Below are positions 6,402-48,565 of a DNA stretch of 64,000 nucleotides, piece by piece. The position numbers and the translations under genes are program-made. Within the stretch, counting starts at the first letter, position 1; every line of letters begins with the position of its first letter. Under the pieces are notes generated by a model that saw nothing but the letters and a program-made list of their open reading frames with translations, was not told the DNA's origin and did not search any database. The stretch comes from Natrinema salaciae (GTDB lineage: Archaea; Halobacteriota; Halobacteria; Halobacteriales; Natrialbaceae), in NCBI RefSeq assembly GCF_900110865.1, contig NZ_FOFD01000010.1, positions 1-64,000 of the forward strand. The letters run 5' to 3'.

Positions 6402-7457
6402 CTATCCGTCGACCGTCAGCGACTCGGCGGCCGTGTCGACCGTCAACGGAGCGCCGATCGGGAGCGGAGCGATGGGCGTTGTGTGTCCCCAATCGAGTCC
6501 GAGAACGATCGGGGCCGCGGGATTGTATCGTTCGACCTGCTCGGTGATCGCGTCCCGAACCCGGCTGCGGTACTGCGCTCGCTCCTCTCGCGGCGGCTCT
6601 TCGAGGAAGCTCCGCCCGGGAGCGCGACCGACCACCACGGCGGCGAAACGCTCGAGCAGCCCGCGCTCGCCGAGACACATGAGCGTTCCGGCGACGTCCG
6701 TCGGGCTCGGCAGCTCTTCGGCGGTCTCGAGCGCGAGGATCGCGCCGTCCAACGCGCCGGGAGCGGGCAGGTAGCGGTCGGTCGCGAGGTGCCACTCCAC
6801 GATCGCGCGGCAGCCGCCCCACACGCGGCCCGTGACGCGCCCGTCGCCGCCTCGCCAGTCCCAGCCCGGATTCGGCTCGTACGCGGGCGGCGTCCGGAGC
6901 TCGTCGGGGTTCGTCCACCAGGTGCTCGGTTCGTCGGTCCACTCCGCCGCCGGCTCGAGTTCGCCCAGGGACTCGTCGAAGAACGCTCGTCGGCAGTAGC
7001 ATTCGGTGTACGCTGGGAGCTCCCCGGGAACCGCGAGCTCGTTCATGAGCTGTGCCCCGCTGTAGGAGACGATGCCGGCGTTCCAGAGCAGGAGCGACAG
7101 ATTCGTGTTGTCGCTCATTCCGTAGAATCGGGTCGGATGCTCGCGGAGGACGGTGGGGTCGAGATGCCGCAAGACGCGGAGCTGGTCCGCGCCGCCGATC
7201 GTCGCGAACACGCCGCTGATATCCGGATCGCGGAACGCGGCGTGGATATCCGCCGCTCGCGCTCGCGGGTGAGCCGAGAGGAAGTCGTCGCTCTGACGGG
7301 CCGTCGGATAGACGACGGGCTCGAGGTCGAACGCCGTGTGCAGTCGCTCGAGGGCGAGTTCGAAGACGTGTGGTGCGTTCCGCGCACCGCCGCTCGATGG
7401 CGCGATGACGGCGACGCGATCCCCCGGCTCGAGTGCAGGCGGCGTCACGAAATTCAT
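6402..7457 (-). CDS. S66 family LD-carboxypeptidase-like peptidase
   Basis: At 351 residues it has the usual S66 length. The N-terminus has the family opening (LEPGDRVAVIAPSSGG). The nucleophile motif is FYGMSDNTNL (Ser near 124), and the Glu and His of the triad fit LALETAEE (near 245) and LDWGHTTPI (near 321). Bacterial relatives cut LD-peptide bonds in murein or microcin C7; archaea lack murein, so here a role in peptide or self-toxin processing is more likely, as inference. There is no signal peptide, so it is cytosolic. A GTTTATCAG element about 33 nt upstream (minus strand) may be its promoter. Confidence 0.9.
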   Translation of the reverse strand: MNFVTPPALEPGDRVAVIAPSSGGARNAPHVFELALERLHTAFDLEPVVYPTARQSDDFLSAHPRARAADIHAAFRDPDISGVFATIGGADQLRVLRHLDPTVLREHPTRFYGMSDNTNLSLLLWNAGIVSYSGAQLMNELAVPGELPAYTECYCRRAFFDESLGELEPAAEWTDEPSTWWTNPDELRTPPAYEPNPGWDWRGGDGRVTGRVWGGCRAIVEWHLATDRYLPAPGALDGAILALETAEELPSPTDVAGTLMCLGERGLLERFAAVVVGRAPGRSFLEEPPREERAQYRSRVRDAITEQVERYNPAAPIVLGLDWGHTTPIAPLPIGAPLTVDTAAESLTVDG

Positions 7458-7786
7458 CGAGTTATATCTGTCGTGACTCTAACATCTGATAAACGTTTTC
7501 GTGTCGAATCTACGGCTGGGATCTCGGCGTACCCGAAACGTGATCGGCAACCAACCTGTACGGGTCCGTTTCAGCGCCGGATCGACGCACAACGCGTCCC
7601 TACCCGGCCGAACGCGGTTCGAGCGCTCGAACGGTCTCGACGGACGGAGCGGTGCTGAACGCGTCGCTCGGCGGCGGCTTCGATACGATTGCAGCCACGG
7701 GAACCCGAGTAGCAGCCGTCTGACAGGGGTAACCGGGTCGAAACAATGAGTCGGTGGACCGTCCGCTGCCAGTGAGACCGCTGAGG
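7458..7786. other. Divergent intergenic region without a gene
   Basis: This region separates the start of the S66 peptidase (leftward) from the ABC exporter operon (rightward). I see no convincing open frame. Only the weak TATA-like GTTTATCAG for the peptidase is noted. Confidence 0.5.
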
Positions 7787-8548
7787 ATGTTCAATCGATC
7801 ACTTCAGGATTCGCGATCGTCGGCGAGTGATAGCGAGGGCGAACGCGAGTCGACGGCGGCCGTTCGTCTCGAGGGCGTCAGCCACCAGTACGGGTCGACC
7901 GGTGGACGGTTCCGCTCGAGCGACGAGCGGGCGGTAACCGCGCTCCGCGACGTCTCACTCGAGGTGCCGGCGGAGACGGTCGTCGGGCTCGAGGGTCCCA
8001 GCGGGAGCGGGAAGTCGACGGTGCTCCACGCGGTCGCGGGACTCCTGGTCCCGACGGAGGGCCGCGTCGAGCTTCGCGATACCGACCTCGCGGCGCTGTC
8101 CGACGCGGAGCGAACGCGGGTGCGGCGACGCCACATCGGGATCGTGTTCCAGCGGTTCCATCTCTTGCCGTCGCTCTCCGCTCGCGCGAACGTCGCGTTG
8201 CCGCTCGTCCAGGCGGGCGTCCCTCGAGCCGATCGCCGGGAACGCGCGACCGCGCTGCTCGAGGCCGTCGGTCTCGGCGACCGCACGACGCACCTTCCCG
8301 GCGAACTCAGCGGCGGCGAGCGACAGCGCGTCGCGATCGCGCGGGCGCTGTCGACGGACCCGGACGTCGTCGTCGCCGACGAGCCGACGGGGGAGCTCGA
8401 CACGGCGACCGGGGCGGACGTCCTCGAGTTGTTGACCGACGTCGGCCGCGATCGGGCGGTGCTGGTGGCTTCCCACGACGAGGCCACGCTCGACGTCGCG
8501 GATCGGGTCGTCACACTGTGTGACGGACGGGTGGAGGATGTCCGATAG
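7787..8548 (+). CDS. ABC transporter ATP-binding protein, LolD/MacB type
   Basis: A 253-residue ATPase with Walker A GPSGSGKST (70-78), signature LSGGERQR, Walker B VVVADEPTGE and the downstream His switch (ASHDE). The Q-loop is VFQRFHLLPSLSA, typical of the MacB/LolD/FtsE branch. It energises the two FtsX-fold permeases that follow, and overlaps the first. ATG 7787 is chosen over GTG 7754 because the extra residues are not conserved-looking. Pairing with two different permeases resembles LolCDE-type complexes, which extract lipids or move peptides across or out of the membrane. The substrate cannot be told from sequence. Confidence 0.93.
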   Translation: MFNRSLQDSRSSASDSEGERESTAAVRLEGVSHQYGSTGGRFRSSDERAVTALRDVSLEVPAETVVGLEGPSGSGKSTVLHAVAGLLVPTEGRVELRDTDLAALSDAERTRVRRRHIGIVFQRFHLLPSLSARANVALPLVQAGVPRADRRERATALLEAVGLGDRTTHLPGELSGGERQRVAIARALSTDPDVVVADEPTGELDTATGADVLELLTDVGRDRAVLVASHDEATLDVADRVVTLCDGRVEDVR

Positions 8549-9821
8549 GCGCGACGGGGGGCCAGCGGATGGCGGTCCGCGGCGTCGGTCGCGATGGACC
8601 GGGATCGTCGGGCTGACGGCGGCCAGATGGTGGCAGCGAGCGACGCGAACGACGATGGGCCGAATCGCGTCGACCATCGCCGCCGTCGCGCTGACGATCG
8701 CGCTGCTGGTCGTCGTGACGGGCATCGCGATGGCGCTGGCCGACGGCGGTGCGACGAGCGAGGACGACGCCGCCGTCCGAATTACGCCCGAGGACAGCGG
8801 GACGCTGTCGTCGGTCGACGGCGTCGAGGGACCGCGGCTCGGCGCGACGAACGGGCGGGCCGCGTCGATCCGCTCGCAGGACGGCGTCGAGCACGCGTCA
8901 CCGGCGTTAGTCGAGACGGCGCGCCTCGAGTCGGCGGACGGGGAGCCGCGGACCGTCCGTCTCGTCGGCGTCGTCCCGGACGACGAGCCGCGGACCGTGG
9001 CGGGCCTGTCGACGGGGGAGCTCGACCCGGGCGATCGACACTACGCGAACGGCTCGTACGATGGGCCGCGCGAGGGGGAGATCGTTCTCTCGCGAACGAC
9101 GGCCGATCGGCTCGACGTCGGGGCGGGTGACGAGGTGACCGTCTCGATGCGGGGGCTCGAACGGACGAGCGGGGCCGGTCCCTCGGTGACGGTGGCGGCC
9201 GTCGCGGACGAGCGGGCGGCTGCCGGCGGTGCGCCGGTCGCACTCGTTCACCTGAGCGAGCTGCAGTCGCTCTCGGGTGCCGACGACGGCGAACTCGCCG
9301 ATCGGATACTGATCTGGGGCGACTCGACGGCGGCGCAGTCGGCCGCGACCGACGCGTACCCGACCGCAGCGGTCGAAGTCGCCGGTAGCACCGACCCGTC
9401 GGTGCTGTTCGAGGACGGCCTGGCGTTCGCGACGAGCGTGATCGCGCTGCTGGTCGGCGTGACGATCTGTGCGTCGTTCGTCGCGACGACCATGGGGATG
9501 ACCGTCGACGAGGACCGTCGCACCCTCGCCGTCCTCGAGTCGGTCGGCTTCCCTACCGCCAGCCGGCTCGCCGTCGTCGCGGTCTCGACCGGGATCACGA
9601 CCGTGGTCGGATCGATCGTCGGAACCGGTCTCGGGCTGGCGGGGATCGTCGCCGTCAACGCCGTGGCGGGGGCGACCGTCGCACCTGGCGCGGTCGCTCA
9701 CTTCCACCCGCTGTTCGTTCCGTACGCGATCGCGGTCGCCCTCCTCTCGGGACTGGTCGCCGTGCCGTACCCGCTGGCCGTCGCCGCGCGAACGTCCGTC
9801 CTCGAGGAGGTGGGTCGATGA
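8538..9821 (+). CDS. ABC transporter permease, FtsX/MacB fold (first of two)
   Basis: The 427-residue product has one N-terminal membrane span (about 38-60), a long extracellular domain (about 65-300) and three C-terminal spans in the FtsX pattern (FEDGLAFATSVIALLVGVTI and following). ATG 8538 overlaps the ATPase gene by 11 nt. The next permease starts inside its stop codon (ATGA), so all three are translationally coupled. The extracellular part is very acidic, as expected for a halophile surface domain. Confidence 0.9.
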   Translation: MSDRRDGGPADGGPRRRSRWTGIVGLTAARWWQRATRTTMGRIASTIAAVALTIALLVVVTGIAMALADGGATSEDDAAVRITPEDSGTLSSVDGVEGPRLGATNGRAASIRSQDGVEHASPALVETARLESADGEPRTVRLVGVVPDDEPRTVAGLSTGELDPGDRHYANGSYDGPREGEIVLSRTTADRLDVGAGDEVTVSMRGLERTSGAGPSVTVAAVADERAAAGGAPVALVHLSELQSLSGADDGELADRILIWGDSTAAQSAATDAYPTAAVEVAGSTDPSVLFEDGLAFATSVIALLVGVTICASFVATTMGMTVDEDRRTLAVLESVGFPTASRLAVVAVSTGITTVVGSIVGTGLGLAGIVAVNAVAGATVAPGAVAHFHPLFVPYAIAVALLSGLVAVPYPLAVAARTSVLEEVGR

Positions 9822-11050
9822 CGCTCGCGAAGGCGGTGGTCCGAACGCGCGCCGTGCTCGGACTGGCCGCCGCCCAACTGCGCCGGTCGCCCGGCCGGAG
9901 CGCGCTCACCGTGCTCGCGGTCACGCTCGCCGTGCTCTCGGTGACGGTGCTCGCGAGCCTCGGCGTCGGCGTCGTCGAGAAGGGCGAAGAGGGGCTGGAC
10001 AACGCCAACCGGGACATCTGGATCTCGAGCGATCCGGTCGACCCGGCCGCGAGCGGGACCGAAAACCCGATCGTCGGCGCTCACGGGATGGCGGCCGAGC
10101 TGACCGCGCGCGACGACGTACAGAGCGCCTCCCCGATCGCGATGTACGACGTCTATCTCGGCTCGAACGAGTCGGATCTGCAACGCCGGCCCGCGGTCGG
10201 CGTCCAGGAGACACACGACGGGTTCGATTTCCACGCGGGGCGCGGGTTCGAGGTCGACGAGGAGACCGCTACCAGCCCCCCTCCCGAGGAGCCGGAGGTC
10301 GGCGAGATCGTCCTCGATCCGCGCGTCGCCGACGAGCTGAACGTCTCGGTCGGCGACACGGTCCACGTCGGGACCAGCCGGCAGACGGCAGGGGAGTACG
10401 AGTTCACCGTCGTCGGGATCTCCGACTACTACTCGCAGTATCTGGGGTCGCCGGCGATGACGGTGCCGCTCGGCGATCTGCAGGCCGTCGCCGGGACGTC
10501 GGGGACCGACCGGGCGACGTTCGTCACCGCCGACGTGACCGACGACGCCGACCGGGCCGCCGTCGCGGACGATCTCGATCGGGAGTATCCAGAGTACGAC
10601 GTGCGGACCAGCGACGAACAGGTCTCCTCGATGATCGAAGAGCGGACGATCGTCCTGGCCAGCGGTGCGACGCTGGTCGGACTCGCCGTCGTCGGCGGCG
10701 TCGTCCTGACGGCGAACCTGTTCGCGCTCGTGGCCCACCAGCAGCGCGAACAGCTCGCTGCGCTCCGGGCGATCGGGCTCTCCCGTCGGCTCCTCGCCGG
10801 CACGATCGGTGCACAGGGGCTCGTCATCGGGCTGCTTGGCGGACTCGTCGGCATCGCGGCGACGCCGCTCGCCGTGATGGGGCTGAACCGGTTCTCGGCG
10901 TCGGTGCTCGGATTCGAACGGCTCCTCCGGACGACGACCGGGATCTACGCCGGCGGCTTCGCGCTCGCGCTCGTCGTCGGGACGCTCGTCGCGCTCGTGT
11001 CCGGCTGGCGAGCCGGCCGCTACGCCCGTATCGAACACCTCGAGGTCTGA
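9818..11050 (+). CDS. ABC transporter permease, FtsX/MacB fold (second of two)
   Basis: At 410 residues it has the same architecture as its neighbour: N-terminal span (ALTVLAVTLAVLSVTVLASL, about 28-48), a large extracellular domain, then three spans, the last with YAGGFALALVVGTLVALVSG. The RAGRYARIEHLEV end resembles the cytoplasmic C-terminus of MacB-type permeases. It overlaps the upstream gene by 4 nt. It is expected to form a heterodimeric channel with the first permease. Confidence 0.9.
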   Translation: MTLAKAVVRTRAVLGLAAAQLRRSPGRSALTVLAVTLAVLSVTVLASLGVGVVEKGEEGLDNANRDIWISSDPVDPAASGTENPIVGAHGMAAELTARDDVQSASPIAMYDVYLGSNESDLQRRPAVGVQETHDGFDFHAGRGFEVDEETATSPPPEEPEVGEIVLDPRVADELNVSVGDTVHVGTSRQTAGEYEFTVVGISDYYSQYLGSPAMTVPLGDLQAVAGTSGTDRATFVTADVTDDADRAAVADDLDREYPEYDVRTSDEQVSSMIEERTIVLASGATLVGLAVVGGVVLTANLFALVAHQQREQLAALRAIGLSRRLLAGTIGAQGLVIGLLGGLVGIAATPLAVMGLNRFSASVLGFERLLRTTTGIYAGGFALALVVGTLVALVSGWRAGRYARIEHLEV

Positions 11051-45586: not shown

Positions 45587-46033
45587 ATGGTTACTGATTC
45601 AGTCGACGATATCGCGTCGGAACTCGAGGCGCTCGAGGGAAAGTTGCCCGCCGCCGCCGACGAGGCAGCGGTCGAGCGCATGCACCTCGTCGCGCGCACC
45701 CTCGACGAGGGGATTCGTGTCCCGGGAACGGATTTCAAGATCGGTGTCGATCCGATCATCGGGGTCCTTCCGGGAGCCGGCGACTCCGTCGCGGCGGTCG
45801 TCTCCCTGTACCTCGTCGCCGAGTCCGCTCGCATGGGCGTCTCCCGGTCGACGCTGGTCAGGATGCTCGCGAACATCGGCGTCGACACCGTGATCGGCTC
45901 AATCCCCGTCCTCGGAGTCGCGTTCGACGCCGTCTGGAAAGCCAACAAGTGGAACCTGCAACTCGCCCTCGAGGACCTCGCCGACGGGGACGGCGACTCC
46001 GAGGACGGACCGGACGTCGTGGCCATCGACTAG
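45587..46033 (+). CDS. DUF4112 family membrane protein
   Basis: The 148-residue product carries the DUF4112 core: VERMHLVARTLDEGIRVPGT, FKIGVDPIIGVLPGAGDSVA, a first span (VAAVVSLYLVAESARM), IGVDTVIGSIPVLGVAFDAV and WKANKWNLQLAL. The two Gly/Pro-rich loops are typical. Function is unknown. ATG 45587 is supported by the TATA element 27 nt upstream. Confidence 0.88.
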   Translation: MVTDSVDDIASELEALEGKLPAAADEAAVERMHLVARTLDEGIRVPGTDFKIGVDPIIGVLPGAGDSVAAVVSLYLVAESARMGVSRSTLVRMLANIGVDTVIGSIPVLGVAFDAVWKANKWNLQLALEDLADGDGDSEDGPDVVAID

Positions 46034-46768
46034 GCTGCCTCGCCGTGTCGTACTGCGTACTGCGTTCTGCGACGAGCGAGAAACACCGTTTTCGAGTCGC
46101 TCCGAACCAGTTGGAGCCGTCCGCCTCAGCGGCCGTGTGACGGGGGCGTCTGCCGGGATATCGCGTCGGCGGAACGAACGGGTCGGACGCAGGTCGTGAC
46201 CGAGCATAGACGGTATCCGGTTTTCAGCCGCTGTCGACACTCCTCGAGTCCGGACGGGGGAGACCGTCGTCGACTGGTGTCGCGTGTGGGCGGACTCGGC
46301 GGAGGCTCCGCTCGAGACGAGCCCCGACGGACCGGTGATCGATTCCGATCTCGAGCGTCTCTGGGCGATACCACGAAATTACGATCCGTTTCGGTGAGCG
46401 GAACCGTTCGGACGGCCGTTTCACAGTAGTCGGCACTGTACGTACAACGCCTCCGTGTGTCCGAGATGACGGCGGCTGCCACCGACCCGCTCTCGAGTTC
46501 TCCGTCGCTGTGCTCGCAGCACCGCAGTTCTCTCGAATTCGGAACGAGTTCTCTGGACACGAGTTCTCGTGATGCTACGCAACGCTCGAGGTATCGTGTT
46601 CGGCAAAATGCGGTGGCTGGAATTCGAACAACGCCGGGACGTTCCGGGTCGTTCGCTCGGCTCACGTCCCGAGCTGCGACTCGTCTCGTTCGAATCCAGG
46701 ACGACTTCACGGCTCACGGATGGCGAGCACACGCTAGCGGTGCCCGCGGGAATCGTTCGCCGTAGAAG
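46034..46768. other. Intergenic stretch leading into the tRNA block
   Basis: No protein gene is supported. Open frames here are Arg/Ser-rich without family resemblance. From about 46600 it is the downstream part of a duplicated tRNA-containing block, including a degenerate tRNA 3'-end copy (46609-46630). Confidence 0.55.
46609..46630 (-). repeat. Degenerate tRNA-Gly 3'-end copy (left block)
   Basis: TGCGGTGGCTGGAATTCGAA on the plus strand resembles the tRNA end TGCGTTGGCTGGGATTTGAA. It lies exactly 160 bp before the matching position of the intact tRNA at 46769. Confidence 0.65.
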
Positions 46769-46839
46769 TGCGTTGGCTGGGATTTGAACCCAGGTTGTGA
46801 CCATGGCAAGGTCACGTGATACCACTACACTACCAACGC
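46769..46839 (-). tRNA. tRNA-Gly (GCC)
   Basis: The 71-nt minus-strand sequence folds as a tRNA: acceptor GCGTTGG/CCAACGC, D-arm with TAGTGGTATCA, anticodon stem TGACC/GGTCA enclosing TTGCCAT (anticodon GCC), T-arm GGGTTCAAATCCC, discriminator A. CCA is not encoded. A TATA-like element TTTATAAGTATAC lies about 65 nt upstream (minus strand, near 46903-46915). A near-identical copy is at 47328. Confidence 0.95.
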
Positions 46840-46902
46840 GCTTGCGACACCGTGACGCCGGCGTTGACCTCGCGTCCACCTGAACGAAATCGTCACGTAT
46901 AC

Positions 46903-46915
46903 TTATAAATGACGA
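46903..46915 (-). promoter_or_regulatory. TATA element of the first tRNA-Gly
   Basis: On the minus strand TTTATAAGTATAC, upstream of the tRNA by about 65 nt. The extra distance over the second copy suggests a longer precursor. Confidence 0.5.
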
Positions 46916-47055
46916 ACTTCGGAACGAAAATCTCGCCGACAGTTTGCCGCGACCGTCCGACTCACGGTATCGCGGACCTCGAGCAAACGCACGGCCCGCG
47001 GAAACGGGCGATTCGCGGATAGTGAACACACGACACGAGACGCTCGCCGGAGAAG

Positions 47056-47078
47056 TGCGCGGCTGGGTGTCGAACCAT
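47056..47078 (-). repeat. Degenerate tRNA-Gly 3'-end copy (middle)
   Basis: TGCGCGGCTGGGTGTCGAAC on the plus strand, preceded by GCCGGAGAAG, matches the tRNA end and the flank GCCGTAGAAG seen in both intact copies. The rest of the tRNA body is not recognisable. Confidence 0.6.
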
Positions 47079-47167
47079 GCCCGAGTACCTGTTCTCATCG
47101 GTCGCAGAACCGCCTAATTCGAATTCAGAGCGAGTTCCGTCGCTCACGGAGTTGCTCGTGGCAGAAA

Positions 47168-47189
47168 TGCGATAGCTGGGATTCGAACA
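47168..47189 (-). repeat. Degenerate tRNA-Gly 3'-end copy (right block)
   Basis: TGCGATAGCTGGGATTCGAA on the plus strand, again exactly 160 bp before the corresponding position of the intact tRNA (47328). It shows that the whole 231-bp block was duplicated after the degenerate copy arose. Confidence 0.65.
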
Positions 47190-47327
47190 ACGCCGAGACG
47201 TTCCGGGTCGTTCGCTCGGCTCACTTCCCGGGCCGAGCTCGTCTCGTTCGAATCCAGCAAGACTTGGCGGCTCACGGATGACGAGCACACGCCACGCGGT
47301 GCTCGCGGGAATTGTTCGCCGTAGAAG

Positions 47328-47398
47328 TGCGCTGGCTGGGATTTGAACCCAGGTTGTGACCATGGCAAGGTCACGTGATACCACTACACTACCAGCGC
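47328..47398 (-). tRNA. tRNA-Gly (GCC), second copy
   Basis: It is identical to the copy at 46769-46839 except for a compensated acceptor pair (GCGCTGG/CCAGCGC in place of GCGTTGG/CCAACGC). Anticodon GCC, 71 nt, discriminator A, no encoded CCA. A TATA-like CCTTATACAT on the minus strand (47430-47439) lies about 35 nt upstream. Confidence 0.95.
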
Positions 47399-47429
47399 CC
47401 GGCTGCACTCATACCTACTGCCGGAGGGA

Positions 47430-47439
47430 TGTATAAGGG
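47430..47439 (-). promoter_or_regulatory. TATA element of the second tRNA-Gly
   Basis: CCTTATACAT on the minus strand at the usual distance from the mature tRNA 5' end. Confidence 0.55.
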
Positions 47440-47623
47440 TTGCGAATCGATTCGACATCGGCACGCTGCGGCACGGTGATTCTCGAGGACGATGCGCCGG
47501 AACCGGCAACATAATCCGCATCCGGCCGCGTGACGATCGGGACCAGTTACCGAACGAGAGTGTGTGTCCGTTCGGCACGAATTCGGGGTTGTGAGGCGTT
47601 GACAGCCGGAATCGAATCCGCTA

Positions 47624-47632
47624 TTCTTTTAA
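47624..47632 (+). promoter_or_regulatory. Probable promoter of the ribosomal superoperon
   Basis: TTCTTTTAA at 47624-47632 is TATA-like. It would give a start near 47655 and a leader of about 35 nt before ATG 47690. No stronger candidate is seen before uL3, so it may drive the methyltransferase and the ribosomal genes together. Confidence 0.5.
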
Positions 47633-47689
47633 GACCCTCTCCGCAATACATCGCTACAGTCTAGTGACGCGGCGCCGAAGCGTCTCGGC

Positions 47690-48565
47690 ATGACCGTCAG
47701 CGTACTCGTCCCGTCGTCGCTCACCCGGGAAGCCGAGGACAAACGCGAGGCAACTCGCAAACTCGGATACGTCGCCCGCGCGGCGACGATCTTCCGGGCC
47801 GATCGCCTGATCGTCTACCCCGATCGGGAGGGCGAAACAGGGCGATTCGACGGCGGGTTCGTAAGCACCGTACTGCGGTACGCCGCAACGCCCCCCTATC
47901 TCCGCAACGAGGTCTGGGGGATGCGGGACGAACTGGAGTACGCGGGCGTCTTGCCGCCGCTCCGCGCCATGTCACAGACCGGCTCCGAATCTACCGGTTC
48001 GGGGTCGTCAAGACAAGGAATCGTGACCGAGGTCGGACCTGAAGGGCGCGTCCGGGTCAATTGCGGACTGCAACACCCGATCTCCCTCAACGTACCGCCG
48101 AAAATGGCGGTCGAGGAGGGGGAGCGCGTGACCGTCAGGATCTCTTCGCGACGACCGGTCCGGGCGAAGCTCGAAAACGTTCCCCTTCCGGGGCTCTCGA
48201 TCGAGCAGACGGACCTGCAGGCAGCGCTCGGCCGTGAGGACGCCGGCGTCCGTATCGCGGCCTCCCGATTCGGTGAAGAACTCACCGTCGGGCGGCTCGA
48301 GACGCTGGCCGGACGCGTCCAGCGCGACGGGATGACCGTCGCCTTCGGCGCGCCCGAGAGAGGGCTGCCGGCTATCCTCGGAATCGAGGAATCGGCCATC
48401 GAAGCGTCGTCCGGACAGGGTGACGCGGCCGATAACGGAGTCGAACCCACTGCCGATCCGGGGTTCGACCTCTGGCTAAACACGGTTCCGGATCAGGGAA
48501 GCGAGGTCGTGCGGACGGAGGAGGCTCTGTTCGCCACCCTCGCGCCCCTCTCACTGAGAGAGTGA
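47690..48565 (+). CDS. SPOUT-class RNA methyltransferase-like protein (DUF171/C9orf114 type)
   Basis: The 291-residue product opens VSVLVPSSLTREAEDKREAT and GYVARAATIFRADRLIVYPD, has an inserted OB-like beta domain (about 110-165) and ends with the SPOUT-like MTVAFGAPERGLPAIL and DLWLNTVPDQGSEVVRTEEA, where the knot binds SAM. Archaeal relatives are regularly found just before uL3, consistent with rRNA modification during ribosome assembly. The gap to uL3 is 4 nt. Confidence 0.88.
   Translation: MTVSVLVPSSLTREAEDKREATRKLGYVARAATIFRADRLIVYPDREGETGRFDGGFVSTVLRYAATPPYLRNEVWGMRDELEYAGVLPPLRAMSQTGSESTGSGSSRQGIVTEVGPEGRVRVNCGLQHPISLNVPPKMAVEEGERVTVRISSRRPVRAKLENVPLPGLSIEQTDLQAALGREDAGVRIAASRFGEELTVGRLETLAGRVQRDGMTVAFGAPERGLPAILGIEESAIEASSGQGDAADNGVEPTADPGFDLWLNTVPDQGSEVVRTEEALFATLAPLSLRE

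Follow-up and report, generated by a model that had tools for sequence, protein, structure and literature searches.

Haloarchaeal MITEs and palindrome-associated elements, like the REP sequences and BIMEs of bacteria, are short, gene-less and palindromic, and are thought to be mobilised in trans. The attC site of an integron is an imperfect hairpin with an outer arm, an unpaired spacer, an inner arm and a variable tip. Its structure is conserved above its sequence.

Judging from excerpts of the respective papers, the 3' parts of tRNA genes serve archaeal integrases as att sites (PMC8371274), and partial tRNA copies in Haloquadratum proviruses have been described together with prophage integration (PMC3119063).

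Here we analyse a ladder of tRNA 3' ends at the tRNA-Gly(GCC) genes of the haloarchaeon Natrinema salaciae. The window, that is, the whole stretch of DNA analysed, is 64,000 nt long (contig NZ_FOFD01000010.1, positions 1 to 64,000). We think that the ladder is probably an old array of miniature, gene-less mobile units that are anchored at the tRNA 3' end. The units are short, gene-less and palindromic like MITEs and REP/BIME sequences, but at the loci examined they are tied to tRNA 3' ends, and their repeat is tRNA nt 53-73. In general layout they may also be likened to integron attC sites and cassettes: a hairpin with two arms and a short spacer, a variable tip, a structure that is kept better than the sequence, tandem arrays, and extra units seen proximal to a fixed anchor. 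Unlike integron cassettes the units have no genes, and their anchor is a tRNA T-arm instead of attI. Moreover, an integron integrase (TIGR02249) scored over the cut-off in 0 of 242 genomes of the class. Hence we do not file the units as integrons. Weaker TIGR02249 matches occur in 180 of the 242 genomes, and also in all 14 of the 14 control genomes. The Haloquadratum provirus copies are direct repeats of tRNA 3' parts as well, but the available part of that account mentions no hairpin unit of the kind found here (PMC3119063).

The tRNA-Gly(GCC) locus

The minus strand of the window holds two tRNA-Gly(GCC) genes, which ARAGORN places at 46768-46839 and 47327-47398 and which Rfam (RF00005) gives as 71 nt each. 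The array consists of the following features:

47328-47398, minus strand: tRNA-Gly(GCC), the copy adjoining the rpl3 operon (ARAGORN, Rfam); nt 53-73 at 47328-47348
47268-47327, minus strand: T-rich stretch and hairpin A of unit 1 (same motif by eye in other units)
47168-47258, minus strand: hairpin B of unit 1, with inverted T-arm (47246-47258), core and copy of nt 53-73 (47168-47188)
47135-47167, minus strand: T-rich stretch and hairpin A of unit 2 (by eye)
47056-47128, minus strand: decayed unit 2, with inverted arm (47113-47128), a core of a second type and 3'-end copy (47056-47075)
46769-46839, minus strand: tRNA-Gly(GCC), distal copy (ARAGORN, Rfam); nt 53-73 at 46769-46789
46609-46700, minus strand: hairpin B of unit 3, with inverted T-arm (46688-46700), core and copy (46609-46629)
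47165-47398, minus strand: copy 1 of a duplicated block (tRNA and unit), 92.3% identical to 46606-46839
46606-46839, minus strand: copy 2 of the block, from the alignment to copy 1

The original prediction was that two 71-nt tRNA-Gly(GCC) genes, differing by one compensated acceptor pair, each have a fragment of their 3' end exactly 160 bp below their tails, that a third fragment lies at 47056, and that a unit of tRNA plus fragment was duplicated. ARAGORN, Rfam and our alignment bear out the two genes and their single difference. The fragments sit at the predicted distance (46609-46629 and 47168-47188, each with 18 of 21 matches to its own tRNA tail), and the third one spans 47056-47075. The duplication is confirmed as well: 46606-46839 and 47165-47398 align over 234 bp with 216 identities (92.3%), so that the similarity extends beyond the tRNA to its fragment. 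The 60-bp flanks outside the block have identities of 0.60 and 0.65, while random 60-mers drawn from the window average 0.61. Because the similarity is confined to the block, the duplicated unit is the tRNA with its fragment, and the two tRNA-Gly genes derive from a duplication of the tRNA together with its unit.

What the prediction missed is that every fragment closes a hairpin unit on its right side, and that an inverted T-arm lies at a distance of 37-58 nt. Hairpin B of unit 1 matches our covariance model R1 at 47176-47257 (86.6 bits) and that of unit 3 at 46617-46699 (89.2 bits), both elements being among those from which the model was built. Unit 2, which sits between the two tRNA-Gly genes, gives no match to R1; by eye it resembles the second unit of locus L062.

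Tail copies of this kind are not due to chance. Among the 44 tRNAs of this genome there are no antisense copies with at least 17/21 matches (two antisense matches reach 15-16/21), and upstream copies at that threshold occur only for the Gly array and the second tRNA-Asp gene. Behind the tRNA, 10 of 44 tRNA genes have a copy with at least 17/21 matches within 400 nt, in a census made without selecting for elements; this count omits tRNA-Asp, whose 'copy' is the second tRNA-Asp gene. The tRNA-Phe and tRNA-Arg(GCG) genes have weaker model matches.

The tRNA-Gly pair lies directly upstream of ORFs that match genes of Natronorubrum bangense (NZ_CP031306.1), where the counterparts are annotated as an RNA methyltransferase gene and the ribosomal genes rpl3-rpl4-rpl23-rpl2. 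The distance between tRNA-Gly(GCC) and the rpl3 operon side is 0.3 kb in the window and about 2.6-3.4 kb in several other genomes (loci L317, L318, L319 and L320).

Anatomy of the unit

Read in the direction of the tRNA, a unit starts with the T-rich hairpin A and continues with an inverted T-arm and a core that contains a covarying stem; the copy of tRNA nt 53-73 comes last. Hairpin B is formed by the inverted T-arm copy, the core (covarying stem and variable tip) and the T-arm with which the nt 53-73 copy begins. The inverted repeat of the unit is the T-arm itself. The sequence of the inverted T-arm is GGATTCGAAC in the window (units 1 and 3) and GGATTTGAAC in most relatives. Units are mostly 80-180 bp long and contain no genes. 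When we scanned up to 1.2 kb behind tRNA genes, the first gap was 80-180 nt in 191 of 207 cases, and later spacings were 100-180 nt in 76 of 84.

The core of the window type is also found behind tRNA-Ser, tRNA-Glu, tRNA-Leu and tRNA-Ala genes of related species, each time with the 3' end of its own tRNA. Of 107 tRNA loci picked for homology to the element, 89 contain a copy; 81 of the 137 copies agree with their own tRNA at 21/21 positions (tails of neighbouring tRNA genes were left out of these counts). Across 402 tRNA loci a copy is present in 207, spanning 32 tRNA types; 158 of 291 copies are perfect at 21/21, and an inverted arm (8 of 9 letters) precedes the copy in 227 of 291. Identity to the tRNA drops just outside the copy: it is 0.55 at one base before nt 53, 0.16 at two and 0.44 at four, and about 0.5 directly after nt 73. 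Most copies are followed by T-rich sequence.

When copies were compared with other tRNAs in a further test, 136 of 138 had their own tRNA as the best or joint best fit. For the inverted arm this held in just 54 of 138. The T-loop motif GTTCRAAT is common to most tRNAs here.

Two tRNA-Arg(GCG) loci, L419 and L446, show another kind of palindrome made from tRNA ends: inverted pieces of the acceptor end (GGTCCTGACG ... CGTCAGGACG) flank a hairpin beyond the unit.

Distribution

With a threshold of E ≤0.001, matches to model R1 turn up in 374 of the 391 Halobacteria genomes sampled and in 81 of the 86 genera. Many of the 374 have at least about ten matches each, the count per genome being capped at 11. 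The elements used to build R1 had initially been detected through their similarity to the window, and the E-values are rough. Across the phylum, 48 of 294 sampled genomes match R1, all of them from a single order. Among the genomes listed, five of the same order have no match, and the remaining 241 appear to lie outside the order (226 of them placed by listing order).

The units keep their position relative to the tRNA. Each of the 30 loci listed from the R1 search of the class has its element on the tRNA 3' side, one of them (L089) with an inverted core. The orientation is nearly always the same, with 138 of 143 elements assigned to an upstream tRNA on the same strand. Among the 80 matches listed by name in a pattern scan of named genomes, which were sorted manually, 33 of the 39 from haloarchaea are at most 700 nt behind a same-strand tRNA, compared to 0 of 41 others. 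These 41 look like chance matches. In the titles and abstract openings that we searched, from which subscription journals are mostly absent, there is no earlier description of such units, and the element family appears to be undescribed in that literature.

Gain and loss of units

We compared two sister species (97.7% identity at the rpl3 locus), with 44 tRNAs each (of 46 and 47 Rfam matches). A copy is present at 17/44 and 20/44 tRNAs. For 40 tRNA pairs, some with unlike upstream flanks, both species have a copy in 13 cases, only one in 10 and neither in 17. The 10 one-sided pairs include an artefact at Ser-CGA (the copy of genome G062 has one extra base), Gly-TCC (where G066 has an integrase element) and Ile-GAT (a partial copy). 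Asp and Ala-TGC were left out of the comparison, and there is no core value for Lys-CTT, His, Leu-CAA and Leu-TAG.

Two of the differences can be polarised. The tRNA-Leu(CAG) site is occupied in G062 alone, one of 29 genomes of the genus; G065, G066, G075 and 25 others have no copy. In the occupied site, the 21-nt copy is immediately followed by the flank that the empty site has. Hence we read this case as a gain. At tRNA-Leu(GAG), G066 has an 81-bp insert plus a 21-nt copy, while its closest relatives G062, G065 and G075 share the flank but lack an insert. Both inserts are complete, with hairpins A and B. Both times the 3' end of the tRNA acquired a unit, accompanied by an exact direct duplication of 21 nt (nt 53-73). 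The tRNA stayed intact, and the old flank follows the new copy. Only single-species cases were polarised in this way, since loss between direct repeats yields identical empty sites. In 27 of 29 genomes of the genus (L454-L482), tRNA-Leu(GAG) is followed at no more than about 60 nt by a sequence resembling CGATGCAGGTGATYTCCCTTCGNGGACATCA; it is possibly an unrecognised RNA or regulatory element.

The differences between the sister species and the empty sites in their closest relatives show that units are gained and build ladders. At Gly-GCC and Val-CAC the extra unit adjoins the tRNA and is followed by the sequence of the sister species. An extra unit can therefore sit between the tRNA and a unit common to both species. 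Arrays also grow by tandem duplication, with repeated identical units in L106 and L107. Units may be lost too: at Glu-TTC there is one unit in G066 but two in G062, and since G065 also has two, the single unit of G066 may be the result of loss.

The Leu-GAG occupants of G077 and G073 differ from these cases. There the insert is larger and about 120 nt of flank are repeated as well. The proximal flank of G073 resembles that of other lineages, as if it had been imported with its own 3' end. For these two occupants, import of a segment from the same tRNA fits better than simple target duplication. A MITE would have terminal inverted repeats and a target duplication of fixed length; here the duplication is 21 nt at Leu-CAG and at Leu-GAG of G066, but the repeats of G077 and G073 are longer.

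Cores shared between tRNA types

Near-identical cores sit behind different tRNAs. We found 18 pairs of units at different tRNA types with cores of equal length that are at least 93% identical; six of these pairs are isoacceptors. Val and Phe units share 98% of 59 nt, Gly and Glu units 98% of 42 nt, and Ser and Thr units 100% of 27 nt. At the orthologous Arg-TCT, Val-TAC and Arg-GCG genes hairpin A is kept next to a core of another type. The distal flank around the changed core is kept only at Arg-GCG, and differs at Arg-TCT and Val-TAC.

Cores also cluster partly by tRNA. For 58 of 99 elements (those of 127 with a core of at least 50 nt) the nearest neighbour in another genome belongs to the same tRNA type. 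Hence much of the distribution is inherited. If units moved as circles that carry a foreign 3' end, they would break the recipient tRNA. It is therefore simpler to assume that the target end is copied locally or that T-arms exchange with each other.

Hairpin structure

The two helices of hairpin B covary. In an alignment of 35 elements 93.2% of the cells are paired, and changes on both sides number 52 compared to 16.9 after shuffling. Pairing values are much lower once the partner is slid. In the inner helix of 129 distinct elements, in an alignment fitted to the covariance model, pairs alternate between C-G (71) and G-C (49), and between A-T (48), G-C (45) and C-G (25). The paired outer and inner arms, their covariation and the variable tips are features in which the units may be attC-like.

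The inner helix has few G-T intermediates: of 740 cells 734 are Watson-Crick and six are G-T, and A-C occurs five times. In the acceptor and T-stems of 97 tRNAs from the same loci, 40 of 1128 cells are G-T, so that G-T is rarer in the inner helix (Fisher p ~1e-4). The outer helix has 84 G-T and 32 A-C, its 3' side being fixed by the tRNA. We dropped strand asymmetry as proof of an RNA, because G-T and A-C are about equally frequent in the inner helix and the 3' side of the outer helix is set by the tRNA. The few G-T intermediates, their lack of excess over A-C and the core of L089, which lies inverted between its arms, lead us to infer a structure at the level of DNA rather than an RNA helix.

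As DNA, the hairpins of the window fold better than shuffled sequences for unit 1 (z -3.3) and unit 3 (z -2.8). Unit 2 no longer folds well (z +1.4). The fresh inserts at Leu-GAG (z -3.7) and Leu-CAG (z -3.6) also fold better than shuffled DNA. A search of 46000-48000 with Rfam 15 (E up to 1) found only tRNA at the gathering score, and three weaker matches overlap the tRNAs. Hence we rejected a known structured RNA family for this region. All three copies of the window are decayed: the array is an old and eroded case, whereas elsewhere this widespread system was recently active.

Integrase elements and viruses near tRNA genes

One locus combines a unit with an integrase gene. Behind tRNA-Gly(TCC), L105 contains a 3-kb element (6804-10019) with a tyrosine integrase ORF (7131-8240; Phage_integrase domain, PF00589). 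The integrase is 42.9% identical to those of Haloarcula virus HCTV-6 and Halorubrum sodomense tailed virus 2 (HSTV-2-like). The direct repeats that flank the element comprise a complete hairpin unit in addition to the 3' half of the tRNA, which suggests that integrated elements can carry units along. In another species, L275 has a 91% identical integrase directly behind the same tRNA, without a unit.

HSTV-2-like elements resemble the units in lying behind tRNA genes, and that of L105 has direct repeats of a tRNA 3' part on both sides. They are unlike the units in carrying an integrase and, by eye, other repeats in their left arms. The 30 best relatives of the L105 integrase lie beside a tRNA at 27 loci. 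Only one of the 30 loci, L105 itself, has a unit within 1.5 kb on either side. Within this integrase family, the one compared here (SNJ2 and others fall outside it), the units are not part of the integrase elements.

The left ends of the integrase loci L279-L303 often have repeats like GCCGTCTTGCGATT between tRNA and integrase (by eye), which are perhaps arm-type binding sites. In the genome of the window, tRNA-His(GTG) is immediately followed by a gene for a tyrosine integrase (G000:C6:98617-99717, L307), probably as part of an integrated element.

The window stretch had no match among phage records, and two exact patterns had none in viral contigs. Both searches can miss variants. Their negative results weaken carriage on haloviruses as an explanation.

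What the ladder is

The original prediction offered integration at att sites as a source of the ladder. One part of this idea stands: there were repeated events at the tRNA 3' end. The fragments are, however, probably not plain scars of ordinary integrated elements. In the scar explanation plasmids or viruses with an integrase leave one tRNA 3'-end copy per integration, and their genes are later deleted. Archaeal integrases do use tRNA 3' parts as att (excerpt of PMC8371274), the L105 element has a whole unit within its direct repeats, and some units follow a tRNA tail without a detected tRNA body (L357, L119). Yet a covarying core common to many tRNA types is unexpected from deletions of unrelated elements, and the single unit at 30 HSTV-2-like loci (one integrase family), the other repeats in their left arms and the missing matches to phage records and viral contigs further weaken it. 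We consider such scars unlikely. In our estimate it is also quite improbable that the unit is a selected RNA or transcription element of tRNA genes (a terminator, a processing decoy or an antisense T-arm) that was copied because it is useful. The constant 3' position, the nearly constant orientation (138/143) and the T-rich sequence after most copies would suit this role, and in Haloferax volcanii a hairpin upstream of the termination site ended 59% of transcripts, according to an excerpt of that study (PMC7237163). But under the strict test only 10 of 44 tRNAs of this genome have a unit, the tRNAs that bear one differ between sister species, one core is inverted, and G-T pairs in the inner helix (6/740, compared to 40/1128 in tRNA stems) are as rare as A-C.

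The T-arm is a natural near-palindrome, and replication alone could in principle produce similar patterns: template switching at the T-arm would yield inverted repeats and slippage would yield tandem copies. The identical tandem units of L106 and L107 and the few G-T intermediates are consistent with such a by-product. A core that is conserved across the class and common to several tRNAs is not, nor are the Leu-CAG and Leu-GAG inserts, which arrived complete with hairpins A and B. We regard this origin as very unlikely.

An old array of miniature mobile units is the explanation we favour. Regarding the mechanism, the hairpin would be used as a folded single strand or as a cruciform. A recombinase acting in trans, a hypothetical enzyme, would most likely join the folded hairpin at the T-loop. 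The 21-nt copy would be supplied by the target tRNA, and units could be lost again by recombination between the 21-nt repeats. A bolder version, which we put forward only tentatively and with more doubt than belief, is a gene-less, integron-like system that spans the class, in which a recombinase inserts folded hairpins at the T-loop and the tRNA is rebuilt by copying nt 53-73.

If the integron-like reading is true, then tRNA T-arms are landing sites, and tRNA genes carry recombination arrays served by a recombinase of the host or of a resident element. The element family as such predicts a widespread hidden recombinase. It also explains partial tRNA copies that are open to mistake for virus scars, and it offers a tractable system for studying how DNA enters tRNA genes without harm.
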